From Halogeometricum rufum (GTDB lineage Archaea > Halobacteriota > Halobacteria > Halobacteriales > Haloferacaceae), in NCBI RefSeq assembly GCF_900112175.1, contig NZ_FOYT01000001.1:124001-188000 (forward strand): DNA of 64,000 nucleotides, in the 5' to 3' direction. The notes under the pieces were generated by a model that saw nothing but the letters and a program-made list of their open reading frames with translations, was not told the DNA's origin and did not search any database. Made by a program: the position numbers and the translations under genes. Positions 41,478 through 47,512 of this stretch are shown one piece after another (position 1 is the first letter of the stretch; each line of letters opens with the position of its first letter).

Positions 41478-42725
41478 CTACTGGCTCTCGTCGTCGGCGT
41501 CGTCTGCGTCCCCGCCGTCGGTGGCGAGTTCGGGCTTGTCCTTCGTCGCCTTCGCCACCGCGGCGTTGGCGAGGCGGGACTGGAAGCCGTGGTACTTCGC
41601 GACGCCGGTGGCGTCCTCCTGCGTGATGCCGTTGACCGTCTCGGTGTTGAACGAGGCGGCCTCCTCGGAGTAGACGGCGTAGTCGGAGTCGCGGGCGACG
41701 GGGCGCGCGCGGCCGCCGTCGAACTTGATAGTCACCGTGCCCGTGACGCGCGTCTGCGTCTCGCCGATGAAGCCCTCCAGCGCCTTCACGAACGGCGCGT
41801 CGACGAGGCCTTGGTAGCCCTTGTTGGCCCACTGCTGGTCGATCTGCTCTTTGAAGTCGCGCTCCTCCTTCGTGAGGACGAGTTGTTCGAGGCCCTCGTG
41901 AGCGGTGAGCAGGGTCGTCGCGGCCGGGTGCTCGTAGTTCTCGCGCACCTTCAGGCCGAGCATGCGGTCCTCCATCATGTCCGTGCGGCCGACGCCGTAC
42001 TGCCCGGCGAGGTCGTTGAGGTGTTCGATGAGGGCGGCGGGTTCCATCTCCTCGCCGTCGACGGCGACGGGGTAGCCGTTCTCGAACGTGATGTCGACCG
42101 TCCCCGTCTCGCCTTTCGGCGTCTCCGTCCACTCGTAGATGTCCTCCGGCGGGACGTAGCCGGGGTCTTCGAGTTGACCGCCCTCGATGGAACGGCTCCA
42201 GAGGTTCGTGTCGATGGACCAGACGCCGTCGTTACCGGCCTTCACGGGCAGGCCCTTCTCCTCGGCGTACTGCTTCTCCCACTCGCGGGTGAGCCCCATC
42301 TCGCGGACGGGGGCGACCACGTCCAGGTCGGAGGCGCGCCAGATGACCTCGAAGCGGAGTTGGTCGTTCCCCTTCCCGGTACAGCCGTGTGCGAGGGCGT
42401 CGCAGCCCTCCTCCTGCGCCACTTCGAGGATGGCGTTGGCGATGACCGGGCGCGCCAGCGCCGTCCCCAGCGGGTAGCCCTGATACGTCGCGTTCGCGCG
42501 AACCGAGTCGAAACAGAGGTCCGCGAACTCGTCTTTCGCGTCCACGACGTGCAGGTCCAGTCCGTGCGCGTCGGCCGTCTCCTGAGCCTCCTCGAACTCC
42601 GATTCGGGTTGGCCGACGTCCACGGTGACGCCGACGACTTCGTCGTATCCGTACTCCTCTTTCAGCAGTGAGACGCAAACTGTGGTGTCCAGTCCGCCGC
42701 TGAACGCGAGTGCAACGCTTGTCAT
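41478..42725 (-). CDS. argG: Argininosuccinate synthase
   Basis: ATP-dependent ligation of citrulline and aspartate. 415 residues. N-type ATP pyrophosphatase P-loop ALAFSGGLDTTV near the N-terminus, GCTGKGNDQLRFE and TYQGYPLGTALARP also diagnostic. Acidic C-terminal tail GGDADDADDESQ. First gene of the argGH operon. Confidence 0.96.
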   Translation of the reverse strand: MTSVALAFSGGLDTTVCVSLLKEEYGYDEVVGVTVDVGQPESEFEEAQETADAHGLDLHVVDAKDEFADLCFDSVRANATYQGYPLGTALARPVIANAILEVAQEEGCDALAHGCTGKGNDQLRFEVIWRASDLDVVAPVREMGLTREWEKQYAEEKGLPVKAGNDGVWSIDTNLWSRSIEGGQLEDPGYVPPEDIYEWTETPKGETGTVDITFENGYPVAVDGEEMEPAALIEHLNDLAGQYGVGRTDMMEDRMLGLKVRENYEHPAATTLLTAHEGLEQLVLTKEERDFKEQIDQQWANKGYQGLVDAPFVKALEGFIGETQTRVTGTVTIKFDGGRARPVARDSDYAVYSEEAASFNTETVNGITQEDATGVAKYHGFQSRLANAAVAKATKDKPELATDGGDADDADDESQ

Positions 42726-42750
42726 ATCTCTCAGTCGTCGTTCGGGGGTG

Positions 42751-42760
42751 ATAAATTACA
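42751..42760 (-). promoter_or_regulatory. TATA element of argGH
   Basis: TGTAATTTAT on the minus strand, about 30 bases before ATG 42725. Confidence 0.5.
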
Positions 42761-42856: not shown

Positions 42857-42870
42857 GGCCCTAAAGGGCC
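42857..42870. promoter_or_regulatory. Palindrome GGCCCTAAAGGGCC
   Basis: Two 6-base arms (GGCCCT/AGGGCC) around AA, in the 440-base gap between argG and the antiporter block. It could be an operator or a short hairpin; the stop codon of the possible 43-residue ORF lies in it. Confidence 0.35.
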
Positions 42871-43016: not shown

Positions 43017-43025
43017 TATTAATAG
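43017..43025 (-). promoter_or_regulatory. TATA element in the argG upstream gap
   Basis: CTATTAATA on the minus strand, near-palindromic, pointing toward 42992. Confidence 0.4.
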
Positions 43026-43165
43026 CTTTCGGAGGTGCAACGCTTGCCGCGCAAAATACGGTCGTCCCCGCTTCGGGAGGGGGTCCGTCTCTGCCTGAGT
43101 AGCCACCGCACGTCGGTCAGGTGACCCGACGTCGGACGCCCTCGGGCGGACGCCGTCCGTCCGCC

Positions 43166-43282
43166 TCAGTCTGCCGCTTCCAGCGCCAGTTCGAGTATCG
43201 TCTCCGTGTCGAACAGCGCGAACGCGACGCCGAGGACGACTACCGCGACGATACCGAGCAGAAGCCACTCTACTGGTGTCAT
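43166..43282 (-). CDS. Small membrane peptide (38 aa) downstream of the antiporter
   Basis: MTPVEWLLLGIVAVVVLGVA then FALFDTETILELALEAAD: one membrane helix followed by an acidic amphipathic tail. It lies 54 bases after the antiporter stop on the same strand, so it may be the third gene of the KhtT-KhtU-like operon and could act as an accessory peptide. Third codon positions are mixed but mainly G/C. Not recognised. Confidence 0.55.
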   Translation of the reverse strand: MTPVEWLLLGIVAVVVLGVAFALFDTETILELALEAAD

Positions 43283-43336
43283 CGCAGCAGATTGTCGGTG
43301 TTCGGAGAGTAAGTGCTTGGTGGCCGGGACCCGCCG

Positions 43337-44536
43337 TCACGCCTCCGCGCCCGTCCGGTCGCCGCGGAACACGAGTCGCTCGACGAACTCCGAGCGCTCC
43401 ATCAGCACCGTCCCGAGACCGCTCATGACGAGGACGTAGCCGACGGCGAACGCCGGAATCACCTCCCGCATGACGGGCGTGGTGCCGGACGCGGCGAGGG
43501 CGGCGATGACCAGCGAGAACTCCCCCCGCGGCACCATGCCGACGCCGACGCGGAGCGACCGGCGCTTCGAGAGGTCGTAGACGCGGCCGCCGAGGTAGCC
43601 CGAGACGACTTTCGCGGGCGTCGTCAGCGCCACCGCGAGGACGAGGGGGACGGCCGCCGCCACGAGGATCGTCGGGTCCGTCCCCACGCCGATCCAGAAG
43701 AAGAACACCGCGCCGAACACGTCCCGGACGGGGGCCAGCAGGCGCTCTATCCGTTCGCGGTGGCCGCTGGTGGCGAACCCCATCCCGACGAAGAACGCCG
43801 CGACGGCCTCGCTGACGCCGAGTACGAGCGCCGCGCCCGAGATGGGGACGACGACGGCTAGCGTCCGGAGGACGAACGCCTCCCGTCCCGTCCCGTCGAG
43901 GACGCCCGTGAACAGGCGAGTGCCGTACTGGACGGCGACCAACAGCAGTCCGAGGAAGCCGAACGCGACGGCCAGCGACCGACCGACGCTCCCCAGTCCG
44001 CCCTCGCCGCCGAGGACGAGGGAGGTGACGACGGCGAGGTAGACGGCGATGAACAGGTCCTCGAACACCAGCGTTCCTAGCATCGGTTCGGCCTCCGGGT
44101 TCGCTATCCACCCGAGGTCGATGAGCGACTTCGTGATGATGGCGCTCGAGGAGATGTAGACGATGCCGCCGAGCAGGAGCGACTCCACGAGCGACCACCC
44201 GAGGACGAGGCCGATGGCGATTCCCAAGGGGAGGTTCACCGCGATGTCGGCGACGCCGGCCCGCGTGATGCGCGTCCGCGATTCGAGCAGCCTGTCGAGG
44301 CTGAACTCCAACCCGAGGAAGAACAGGAGGAGGACGATGCCCACCTCGGCGAACAGCGTCACCACCTCCCCGTTCGTGACGTACGGCAGACCCATCCGAC
44401 CGGCGACGAACGGGCCGGCGAGGACGCCGCCGACGACGTACAGCGGGATGACCGACAGCCCCAGACGGAGGGCGAACGCGCCCGCCACGGCGACGACGAC
44501 GAACAGTTGCCCGAGTTCGAGGAGTTCCGCCGCCAT
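43337..44536 (-). CDS. CPA2-family cation/proton antiporter (KhtU-like)
   Basis: A 399-residue membrane antiporter of the KefB/KhtU group, 11-12 helices without a fused RCK domain. Marks: PLYVVGGVLAGPFVAG, LLLFFLGLEFSLDRL (the GLEF motif of CPA2), YISSSAIITKSLIDLG and VGMVPRGEFSLVIAALA. ATG 44536 shares one base with the stop of the upstream TrkA-C gene (TGATG). In Bacillus, KhtU exports K+ (or NH4+) in exchange for H+ under control of KhtT. Confidence 0.9.
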   Translation of the reverse strand: MAAELLELGQLFVVVAVAGAFALRLGLSVIPLYVVGGVLAGPFVAGRMGLPYVTNGEVVTLFAEVGIVLLLFFLGLEFSLDRLLESRTRITRAGVADIAVNLPLGIAIGLVLGWSLVESLLLGGIVYISSSAIITKSLIDLGWIANPEAEPMLGTLVFEDLFIAVYLAVVTSLVLGGEGGLGSVGRSLAVAFGFLGLLLVAVQYGTRLFTGVLDGTGREAFVLRTLAVVVPISGAALVLGVSEAVAAFFVGMGFATSGHRERIERLLAPVRDVFGAVFFFWIGVGTDPTILVAAAVPLVLAVALTTPAKVVSGYLGGRVYDLSKRRSLRVGVGMVPRGEFSLVIAALAASGTTPVMREVIPAFAVGYVLVMSGLGTVLMERSEFVERLVFRGDRTGAEA

Positions 44537-45021
44537 CAGTCGCCGCGCACCATCGAGAGCAGGTCGCGGCAGGCGTCCGTCTTTCCGATGACCACGAGCG
44601 TGTCGCCCGCTTCGATGGTGGCGTCGCCGCCGGGCGAGACGACGACGTCGTCGTCGCGTTCGATGGCGATGACGGACGCACCGGTCGCCTGCCGGAGGTT
44701 CGACTCGGCCAGCGTCGTCCCCACCACGGGCGAGTCGTCGCCGACTTCGACCCACTCCAGCAGGGTGTCCTCGCCCAGCAGCGTCTCTATCGTGTCCGTC
44801 TGCACGGGCTGGAAGTACGCCCCCTCCAGGAGCGTCCCCACCTGCCGCGCGAGCTTGTCGGACAGTTCGAACAGCTTCTTGGAGTCGCTGTCGGCGTCCG
44901 GCCGGCGGAACACCTCGCGCTTCCCGCTGTTGTGCGTCACGATGACGAGGCGGCCGCCGTCGCCCAGTTCCACCTCGTGTTTCTTTCCGACGCCCGGAAG
45001 GTCGCTCTCGTAGACAGTCAC
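44536..45021 (-). CDS. TrkA-C domain regulatory subunit of the antiporter (KhtT-like)
   Basis: A 161-residue cytoplasmic protein from GTG 45021. The N-terminal module VYESDLPGVGKKHEVEL plus RLVIVTHNSGKREVFRR matches KhtT, and the C-terminal RCK_C domain contains DDSPVVGTTLAESNLRQATG and DATIEAGDTLVVIG. In Bacillus KhtT gates KhtU and binds c-di-AMP through RCK_C. Haloarchaea make c-di-AMP, so the same control is possible. The 30 residues before GTG 45021 in the open frame are Arg-rich and excluded. Confidence 0.87.
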   Translation of the reverse strand: MTVYESDLPGVGKKHEVELGDGGRLVIVTHNSGKREVFRRPDADSDSKKLFELSDKLARQVGTLLEGAYFQPVQTDTIETLLGEDTLLEWVEVGDDSPVVGTTLAESNLRQATGASVIAIERDDDVVVSPGGDATIEAGDTLVVIGKTDACRDLLSMVRGD

Positions 45022-45091: not shown

Positions 45092-45715
45092 TCACACGAC
45101 CGCCGCCGCACCCGTCGCCGCGAGGACGGCCGCGATACCGAGACACGCCGCCGGCGGAATCGAGGCGTTGTCGTCGACGACGTACCCCCACACGACCGGC
45201 TTCACGCCGTCGGCGACGGTGGCCCCGACCGACCCCGCGGCGGCGGCGACGACGCCGACGGCCCCGGCGACGGGGTAGAGGACGGGGACGCTGACGGCCA
45301 GACAGACCGCGAACATGGCGGCCAGCGTCCGCAGGCGCTTGGGTTCGCCGGCCTCCCGCGTCCGGCCGAGCAGGCCGCTCACTGGGTCGCCGACGGCGAG
45401 CATCAGCATCCCCGGCACCGCGACGTGGGGTTCGAAGACGAGGACGACGCCGGTCATGCTGTACACGTAGAGCGCGTACCCCGCCAGGTTCGTCTGCTCG
45501 TACGAGCGGGTGAGTTCGTCGTAGATGGCCCAGTCGAGGCCGACCTGCAGGCGGAGGACCTCCAGCACGGTGACGACGCCCGAGAGGACGACCATCAGGA
45601 GCGTCAGGTGCGACCACGAGAGGACGCCCGCGAGGTAGCCGAGGGGGACGGACGCACCGCTGGCGTGGACGAGACGGCGTTTGACCTCGCTCTTCGAGAG
45701 GGACCCGAGGTGCAC
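45092..45715 (-). CDS. Dolichol kinase-like membrane protein
   Basis: A 207-residue polytopic protein of the SEC59/phosphatidate cytidylyltransferase-like group. Seen: KRRLVHASGASVPLGYLAG at the start, and AVGDPVSGLLGRT, which matches the CTP-binding DPxxxxxGR-type motif. In haloarchaea dolichol phosphate carries glycans for N-glycosylation, so recycling or making dolichol phosphate is plausible. Starts at GTG 45715, six bases after the glyS stop, hence in one operon with glyS. Confidence 0.8.
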   Translation of the reverse strand: MHLGSLSKSEVKRRLVHASGASVPLGYLAGVLSWSHLTLLMVVLSGVVTVLEVLRLQVGLDWAIYDELTRSYEQTNLAGYALYVYSMTGVVLVFEPHVAVPGMLMLAVGDPVSGLLGRTREAGEPKRLRTLAAMFAVCLAVSVPVLYPVAGAVGVVAAAAGSVGATVADGVKPVVWGYVVDDNASIPPAACLGIAAVLAATGAAAVV

Positions 45716-45721
45716 CGTGGG

Positions 45722-47512
45722 TCAGGCGTCGGTGAGTTCGTCGTACTCGGCGGCCACGTCGTCGAACGTCCGGTCGCCGCCCCGAACCGCGCCGAGTTCC
45801 GCGGCGAGTTCGGAGACGGGGACGCGGACCTGCCGGCCGGAGTCGCGTTCGCGGATGGTGACGGTGGTCTCGCCCTCACCTTCGAGGCCGTCGCGGTCGA
45901 CGGTGATGCAGAACGGCGTGCCGACCTCGTCCTGCCGGCGGTAGCGCCGGCCGATGCTGCCGGAGTCGTCGTAGACGACCGAGAGGCCGGCGGCGCGCAG
46001 GTCGGCGACGACGTCGTCGGCGAGTTCGACCAGTTCGTCGACGTTGCTCACGAGGGGGAACACGCCCACGTCGCGCGGGGCGATTTCGGGCGACAGCGAC
46101 AGGTACGTCCGTTCCTCGCCGTCCACCTCGTCCTCCTCGTACGCGTGCGCGAGGAGCGTGTATATCGTCCGGTCGACGCCGAAGGAGGGTTCGACCACGT
46201 GCGGCGTGACGTGTTCGCCGCTTATCGTCTGCTCTTCGACCGAGAAGTTCGTCACGTCGGTGGCGACGGCGTACGACTCGCCGGCCACCTCGACGGTCAC
46301 CTCGTCGGCGTCGAAGGCGTCGGGGTCGCGTTCGGCCAACGTCTCCAGCGCCGCCTTCACGTCGCCCGCCGCGCCGCCGAACTCGGGACCGAGGACGGAC
46401 ATGTCGGGATCCACGACGGCGCGTTCGACCGTCTTCGGTTCGTCGTACTGCCGGAACACCGTGTAGTCCTCCTCGGAGTACTCGGCGTGCTTCGACAGGT
46501 CGTAGTCCGACCGGTAGGAGAAGCCGGCTATCTCTATCCAGTCGCCGTCCACCTCGCTCTCGGCGTCCCAGCAGTCGCTGGAGTAGTGCGCGAGTTCGCC
46601 GGGCAGGTGCTGACGGAACCGGAAGCGGTCCGTGTCGACGCCGATTCGCTCGTACCACTCCTGTGCGACGCCGAGGAAGTAGCCGACCCACGCGTTCGCG
46701 ACGACGCCCTCGGCGACGGCGTCGCCGACGGTGGTCTCGACGTACTCGCCGTCGTCGGCCTCCTGTTCGGACGCCGGGTAGAGGGTGACTGCCACGTCCT
46801 CGACCGACGACAGGTCGGGTTCGTCGCGTTCGGGGTCGACGAACTGCTCCAACTCCGCCTGCGTGAACTCCCGCGTGCGGACGATGCTCTTGCGCGGCGA
46901 AATCTCGTTGCGGTAGGCGCGACCCACCTGCGTCACGCCGAACGGGAGGCGGTTGCGGGCGTACTCCTTGATGCGCGGGAACTCCACGAAGATGCCCTGC
47001 GCCGTCTCCGGGCGGAGGTAGCCCGGCGTCGAGGAACCGGGGCCGATGTTCGTCTCGAACATGAGGTTGAAGCTCTCGACGGACTGGCCGGCGAGTGCGG
47101 CGCCGCAGTTCGGACAGACGAGGTCGAGGGCGGCTATCTCCTCGGCGGCCGCCTCCAGCGACAGCGTCTCGGCGTCTTCGAGGTCGGAGTTGTCCTCGAT
47201 GAGGTGGTCCGCGCGGTGGGACTCGCCGCACTCGGCGCACTCGACCAGCATGTCGTCGAAGCCGTCGAGGTGGCCCGACGCCTCGAAGACCGGTTCGGGC
47301 ATGACCGTCGGCGCGTCTATCTCCATGTTGCCCTCCTGTACGGCGAACCGGTCGCGCCACGCCTCCTCGACGTTCGACTTCAGCGCGGCGCCCTGCGGGC
47401 CGTAGGTGTAGAAGCCGGCGGTGCCGCCGTAGGACTCGTTGGAACCGAAGTAGTAGCCGCGCCGCTTCGCCAACTCGGTGAGGCGTTCGCCCTCGGTTCG
47501 GTCCGCACCCAT
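45722..47512 (-). CDS. glyS: Glycyl-tRNA synthetase
   Basis: Class II synthetase, homodimeric archaeal/eukaryal type, 596 residues. N-terminal RRGYYFGSNESYGGTAGFYT and YGPQGAALK, a zinc module (CAECGESH and CPNCGAAL), motif 2 region VGRAYRNEISPRK, and motif 3 EPSFGVDRTIYTLL. C-terminal anticodon-binding domain follows (VVYDDSGSIGRRYRRQDEVG). Its ATG directly abuts the stop of the CBS gene. Confidence 0.97.
   Translation of the reverse strand: MGADRTEGERLTELAKRRGYYFGSNESYGGTAGFYTYGPQGAALKSNVEEAWRDRFAVQEGNMEIDAPTVMPEPVFEASGHLDGFDDMLVECAECGESHRADHLIEDNSDLEDAETLSLEAAAEEIAALDLVCPNCGAALAGQSVESFNLMFETNIGPGSSTPGYLRPETAQGIFVEFPRIKEYARNRLPFGVTQVGRAYRNEISPRKSIVRTREFTQAELEQFVDPERDEPDLSSVEDVAVTLYPASEQEADDGEYVETTVGDAVAEGVVANAWVGYFLGVAQEWYERIGVDTDRFRFRQHLPGELAHYSSDCWDAESEVDGDWIEIAGFSYRSDYDLSKHAEYSEEDYTVFRQYDEPKTVERAVVDPDMSVLGPEFGGAAGDVKAALETLAERDPDAFDADEVTVEVAGESYAVATDVTNFSVEEQTISGEHVTPHVVEPSFGVDRTIYTLLAHAYEEDEVDGEERTYLSLSPEIAPRDVGVFPLVSNVDELVELADDVVADLRAAGLSVVYDDSGSIGRRYRRQDEVGTPFCITVDRDGLEGEGETTVTIRERDSGRQVRVPVSELAAELGAVRGGDRTFDDVAAEYDELTDA

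Follow-up and report, generated by a model that had tools for sequence, protein, structure and literature searches.

Organization of the khtTU region

The 64-kb stretch of Halogeometricum rufum DNA that was analysed (the window) carries, on its minus strand, a khtT-like gene and a khtU-like gene followed by a very short open reading frame (ORF). The khtT-like gene (45021-44536) begins with GTG, terminates with a TGA ending at 44536, and encodes a protein of 161 amino acids. The khtU-like gene (44536-43337) begins with the ATG at 44536, has a stop codon ending at 43337, and encodes 399 amino acids. The A at position 44536 is common to both genes, resulting in a one-base overlap. After a gap of 54 bases (43283-43336), a 38-codon ORF on the same strand (43282-43166; ATG at 43282, stop ending at 43166) encodes an acidic membrane peptide with one helix, MTPVEWLLLGIVAVVVLGVAFALFDTETILELALEAAD.

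Upstream of khtT lies a gene for a polytopic membrane protein, designated DolK-like below (45092-45715, minus strand), and upstream of that gene a class II aminoacyl-tRNA synthetase was identified by domain match (45722-47512), which we take to be glyS. Downstream of the peptide are argH and argG, the latter (41478-42725, minus strand) assigned as argininosuccinate synthase by domain match. No tRNA was found in the window, and no known RNA family matched it at the Rfam gathering threshold.

The khtT and khtU genes

The khtT product, which begins with MTVYESDLPGVGKK, consists of a KhtT-type N-terminal module and an RCK_C (TrkA_C) domain without RCK_N; TrkA_C was its sole domain match above cut-off. 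Residues 2-154 of 161 aligned with the solved KhtT 7agv (phmmer; E value, 5.1e-26), and a profile of 16 sequences matched the solved KhtT with an E value of 4.3e-34. The entries 7agv and 7ahm are presumably KhtT from Bacillus subtilis. The predicted model of the H. rufum protein was of moderate quality (mean pLDDT 79.8). In a fold search with this model, the top nine matches were KhtT chains solved with c-di-AMP (6.1e-14 to 1.6e-11), and the next match, MthK (1.9e-6), was weaker by five orders of magnitude. The TM-scores to KhtT were only 0.43-0.52, with rmsd values of about 10 or higher; a different placement of the two domains is the probable cause.

A khtT gene was found in 290 of the 391 genomes of the class (E <= 1e-18). 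In all 70 khtT loci examined, which were drawn from the upper part of the 290-genome match list, khtU followed khtT on the same strand, and residues E5, L8-G10, G12, K13, R35, and R59 of the N-terminal module were identical, the H. rufum locus included. One genome (G375) had six khtT matches; the four with listed positions lie on two contigs, and each spans almost the whole of KhtT. The khtT of Halobellus rufus (L197, 1028-1506) was split over two overlapping frames, reflecting a frameshift or a sequencing error.

By homology, the khtU product is a CPA2-type cation/proton antiporter, and it matched PF00999 over residues 13-376 of 399 (5.8e-50). This was its sole Pfam match, and the protein has no RCK domain of its own. 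A match to the CPA2 family TIGR00932 (6e-35) fell under the curated cut-off of that family. The nearest solved relatives of KhtU were a bacterial Na+/H+ antiporter (4bwz) and KefC.

The initial annotation of this region had described a KhtTU-like antiporter pair whose RCK_C protein carries the KhtT-type N-terminal module. The antiporter assignment is upheld by the sequence matches of both proteins and the fold match of KhtT, and the module by the full-length match to the solved KhtT. Its coordinates for the one-base overlap, the 54-base gap, and the 38-residue ORF were all correct. Judging from these sequence relationships, the pair is very likely a KhtTU-type K+ exporter. Its transport activity, ligand, and direction would be those of B. 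subtilis KhtTU, from which they are carried over.

Possible gating by c-di-AMP

The premise of the same annotation that haloarchaea make c-di-AMP agreed with the data. The H. rufum genome encodes a DAC domain on contig C5 (73.5 bits, over the family cut-off), and the text of PMC6741144 describes c-di-AMP production in Haloferax volcanii, in which dacZ is essential. A second, weaker DAC-domain match was also seen in the H. rufum genome (C3:82003-82227; 30.2 bits, over the cut-off). The targets of the nucleotide in haloarchaea are left to future work in PMC6741144, and the words KhtT, RCK, and TrkA are absent from the main text of that paper; KhtT, present in 290 of 391 genomes, is a concrete candidate.

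For B. subtilis, the text of PMC10117811 describes c-di-AMP located at the interface of the KhtT dimer, where it breaks the contact between KhtT and KhtU and thereby activates export, and KhtT proteins of B. anthracis are described as binding c-di-AMP (text of PMC11302148). Judging by homology, H. rufum KhtT would probably bind c-di-AMP. Because relatives of this protein bind the nucleotide and the genome has a diadenylate cyclase domain, c-di-AMP gating of H. rufum KhtTU would be plausible.

The RCK_C signature published for c-di-AMP (PMC10117811) is followed strictly neither by H. rufum KhtT nor by the KhtT solved with c-di-AMP. Its D position is D in 39 of the 70 loci and replaced in 31, including H. 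rufum, where it is N, and its N position is S in 63 of the 70. Both departures would suit a genuine KhtTU in which the haloarchaeal KhtT senses pH, a cation, or another nucleotide, as would the statement in the text of PMC10117811 that two of six Streptomyces venezuelae RCK_C domains bind c-di-AMP. However, the closest solved relative of the H. rufum protein is a c-di-AMP complex, the KhtT in that complex itself carries T at the N position, and the arginine of RCK_C is retained in 66 of the 70 loci. A signal other than c-di-AMP is considered unlikely, albeit with a chance that deserves to be taken seriously.

Conservation of the 38-residue peptide

A search with one peptide as the query gave matches in 20 of the 391 genomes (E <= 0.01). 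A profile built from 11 peptides detected homologous ORFs, 37-43 codons long, in 28 of the 391 genomes of the class (E < 2e-8); 11 of these 28 had contributed to the profile. The count of 28 excludes, as likely chance, 17 of the 45 profile-matched genomes, in which the sole match was weak (E 9.7e-5 to 0.05). Among the nearest genera, the peptide was present in two of the three Halogeometricum genomes and 12 of the 15 in the genus containing Haloferax. Further away, it was present in five of the six genomes in the genus of Halolamina rubra, in three genomes of family f2 (both of genus g28 and one of the three of g74), and in all six of genus g71 in family f4. A tblastn search of the plasmid set found no copy of the peptide on plasmids.

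The peptides share the start MTxxE(W/L), followed by some 18 residues of hydrophobic sequence and an acidic tail that ends in ELxxELxD. Residues E5, E31, L32, E35, and D38 were invariant among the 11 aligned sequences, and among the 28 peptides, one has Q5 and one ends in G. The dN/dS ratio was below 0.5 in 15 of 16 pairs, which were hand-picked and mutually non-independent; the value of 0.73 for the exceptional pair came from three changes. Two further hydrophobic ORFs have different sequences and were not counted as the peptide: one of 29 amino acids behind khtU (L038, at +82), probably a chance frame, and one of 54 amino acids behind the DolK-like gene (L163).

A promoter-like box precedes the peptide in H. 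rufum (43308-43325, minus strand), with GGCCAC 38-43 nt and CTTACT 26-31 nt before the ATG. GGCCAC was found 34-47 nt before the peptide ATG in 21 of the 28 genomes, behind either khtU or the DolK-like gene, and was absent in seven, namely, all six of genus g71 and L176. The distance from GGCCAC to the ATG is that of a leaderless haloarchaeal promoter. The conservation of this box suggests an independent small membrane protein and makes it probable that the peptide gene has a promoter of its own and gives rise to a leaderless transcript.

A frame this short, lying amid many spurious ORFs, could in principle be open by chance. Against this, the peptides of 28 genomes from three families are alike in length and in their acidic C-terminal pattern, they show signs of purifying selection, and most of them keep the upstream box. 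The chance of an accidental frame is very small, and this explanation was rejected on the grounds of conservation and purifying selection. By these comparisons of sequence, the peptide ORF is a real gene.

Genomic neighborhood of the peptide

The gene directly upstream of the peptide was khtU in 14 of the 28 genomes and the DolK-like gene in the other 14, where no khtTU intervenes (three of the peptide loci, L179, L191, and L192, were placed by reading coordinates). In 11 of these latter 14 genomes, khtT was located at a distance of at least 27 kb or on a different contig, and in the remaining three (G090, G214, and G221), there was no full-length KhtT (E <= 1e-8). Four genomes of the two nearest genera (G358, G305, G245, and G076) have khtTU behind the DolK-like gene without the peptide. 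At the search cut-offs used, no peptide was detectable in 265 of the 290 khtT genomes, although a 38-residue query is hard to detect and such absences are less certain than presences. Because the peptide is found without adjacent khtTU, and khtTU without the peptide, it is, as far as genome comparison tells, a separable gene that is not tied to khtTU.

The initial annotation had suggested that the peptide may be a small KhtTU subunit, expected to be conserved next to khtU, and had named its absence from relatives with the pair as an observation that would count against this idea. The expected conservation was seen in the two nearest genera, in which 14 of 18 genomes have the peptide beside khtTU, but not beyond them; 14 of the 70 khtT loci have the peptide after khtU. 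The absence was observed in the large majority of khtT genomes, and the subunit proposal was not sustained.

A dedicated subunit that tunes the antiporter, analogous to khtS and cpeC of the bacterial Kht and Cpe operons, would account for the close spacing of the peptide to khtU, across which transcription could read through from khtU, and for its retention in the nearest genera; a third small gene, KhtS or CpeC, is also described for bacteria in the text of PMC10117811. Nevertheless, such a subunit should be found only or mainly with khtTU, and the peptide is not: half of the genomes that encode it have no adjoining khtTU, three of them have no full-length KhtT, and khtTU without the peptide occurs even in the two nearest genera. 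The distribution among genomes strongly weakens the subunit explanation, which is accordingly rejected as improbable.

The alternative partner suggested by the neighborhood is the DolK-like protein. Its gene was found in 388 of the 391 haloarchaeal genomes, and the peptide lies downstream of it in all 28 peptide genomes, 14 times as the next gene and 14 times with khtTU in between. The protein has conserved GDPxSG and DDNxxIP motifs, which resemble those of dolichol/phytol kinases, and the name DolK-like is taken from these motifs. Its predicted model was confident and all-helical (pLDDT 90.6). The H. rufum protein gave no Pfam or NCBIfam match (E <= 1), 18 of its relatives gave only stray weak Pfam matches (best, 0.0078), and the model had no credible fold match in the PDB (best E value, 0.95).

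The peptide may be an accessory of this protein, which would be of the polyprenol or lipid kinase type, co-regulated with lipid-carrier or glycosylation needs. The constant position behind the DolK-like gene favors this possibility, but the latter gene is nearly universal and the peptide is in only 28 genomes, the peptide gene seems to be served by a promoter of its own, and neighborhood alone may reflect vertical inheritance. The kinase identity, moreover, depends on motifs, with nothing credible from the Pfam, NCBIfam, and PDB fold searches. An accessory role for the DolK-like protein is regarded as a tentative proposal with well under an even chance of being correct. The likeliest guess at the role of the peptide would be a modulator of some membrane protein, for which the DolK-like neighbor would be the first candidate.

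Several lineages that lack the peptide have the DolK-like gene next to khtTU as well, and the pair can then also be encoded in the opposite orientation. In L147, L155, and L168, khtTU is in this reversed orientation and is flanked by the DolK-like gene and a gene for a helicase, presumably Hef-like. The site behind the DolK-like gene seems to be prone to rearrangement, and khtTU may have been inserted between this gene and the peptide, or lost from there elsewhere. The position of the peptide would belong behind the DolK-like gene, and the peptide stands beside khtTU because khtTU sits between the two in the Halogeometricum/Haloferax lineage.

Taken together, the locus probably combines a KhtTU-type antiporter pair with an independent gene for a 38-residue membrane peptide that is not a constituent KhtTU subunit, and we hold this reading with good confidence. 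Knowing that the peptide is separable from khtTU saves a vain hunt for a subunit and marks out a family of small membrane proteins linked to a different locus.

A candidate arginine attenuator upstream of argG

A leader ORF lies between the 38-residue peptide and argG on the same strand (42992-42861, minus strand). It encodes 43 amino acids, ends in ARRRRPAL and a stop codon, and its stop codon is held in a hairpin, GGCCC-TTTA-GGGCC (42857-42870, minus strand). A BRE/TATA-like box (43017-43032, minus strand), CCGAAAG followed by TATTAATA, is located 25-40 nt before the leader ATG, and a second TATA-like box precedes argG itself (about 42750-42756, minus strand). The leader lies outside the coordinates of the peptide and khtTU and uses nothing of KhtTU. 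The exact 19-base motif of the leader region occurs once in the H. rufum genome.

The argG search kept 80 loci, all of them haloarchaeal, with Halogeometricum pallidum as the nearest. The upstream regions of H. rufum and 73 of these loci were compared (n = 74); the other seven loci offered too little sequence. Of the 74 regions, 72 yielded a leader ORF, with a hairpin at the ORF end in 71; these ORFs were picked for terminal arginine and a TATA-like box, and those two contents are biased by the selection. In the haloarchaea examined, the leader ORF and hairpin are located 81-153 bases before argG.

A combined test required a TATA-like box, an ATG, and 15-60 codons with at least two arginine codons ahead of a stem in which the stop codon is contained or which closely precedes it. 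It was passed by 65 of the 74 upstream regions, compared with 1 of 3066 control windows from elsewhere in these loci, 0 of 74 regions on the opposite strand, and 0 of 740 shuffles, with criteria that were set after the leaders had been seen and among loci many of which are close relatives.

In a set of 33 of the 71 hairpins, hand-chosen for variety, three of the five stem pairs were altered on both sides. The observed share of paired cells (89.1%) and the covariation score were reached in 0 of 500 shuffles, whereas 279 of the 500 matched the counts of double-changed pairs and of pair types when these were taken alone. Pairing of the arginine run with downstream sequence gave z > 2 in 20 of the 71 (H. 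rufum, z = -0.6). This second structure was seen only in some lineages.

In 56 of the 74 regions, argG was itself preceded by a TATA-like box at a distance of 20-38 nt. Because such a box also precedes argG, the gene may have two promoters, one at the leader and one that would give a leaderless message.

These features are consistent with an archaeal arginine attenuator, in which ribosome stalling at the arginine codons of the leader would determine what becomes of the argG message, and we lean slightly toward this explanation. No report of an archaeal arginine leader or attenuator was found among the listed titles and openings of abstracts in open-licence PMC, which is weak evidence of novelty. 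If the explanation is true, the argG leader would provide evidence that translation-dependent attenuation by amino acids exists in Archaea.

Comparison with known systems

The leader-peptide attenuators of bacteria are represented by trp, his, and ilv. The candidate argG leader resembles them as a short ORF rich in codons for the end product that ends at a hairpin before a biosynthetic gene. It differs in being archaeal, in its leaderless start, and in the position of the stop codon, which is inside the hairpin in most species. In addition, the candidate is not known to have a terminator/antiterminator pair, and a second promoter-like box lies before argG in many species.

KdpF, CydX, and AcrZ are small accessory membrane proteins that generally stay with their partner genes. 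The 38-residue peptide is similar to them in having one hydrophobic helix and fewer than 50 residues and in being encoded adjacent to a gene for a membrane protein, whereas it does not stay with khtTU. The CpeABC system of Streptomyces, as described in the text of PMC10117811, is likewise an operon in which genes for an RCK_C protein and a KhtU-like exchanger are accompanied by a small ORF. However, CpeC is reported to be 22% identical to KhtS (PMC10117811), whereas the H. rufum peptide has 38 residues and one helix and is separable from the pair.

The closest counterpart of the two larger genes is KhtTU(S) of B. subtilis, with which they share the two-gene set, the alignment of KhtT over its full length, including the ExDLPGxGKK module and RCK_C, and the matching exchanger type of KhtU. 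The H. rufum pair differs in being archaeal and in the overlap of khtT with khtU, and it is a good archaeal member of the known KhtTU kind.
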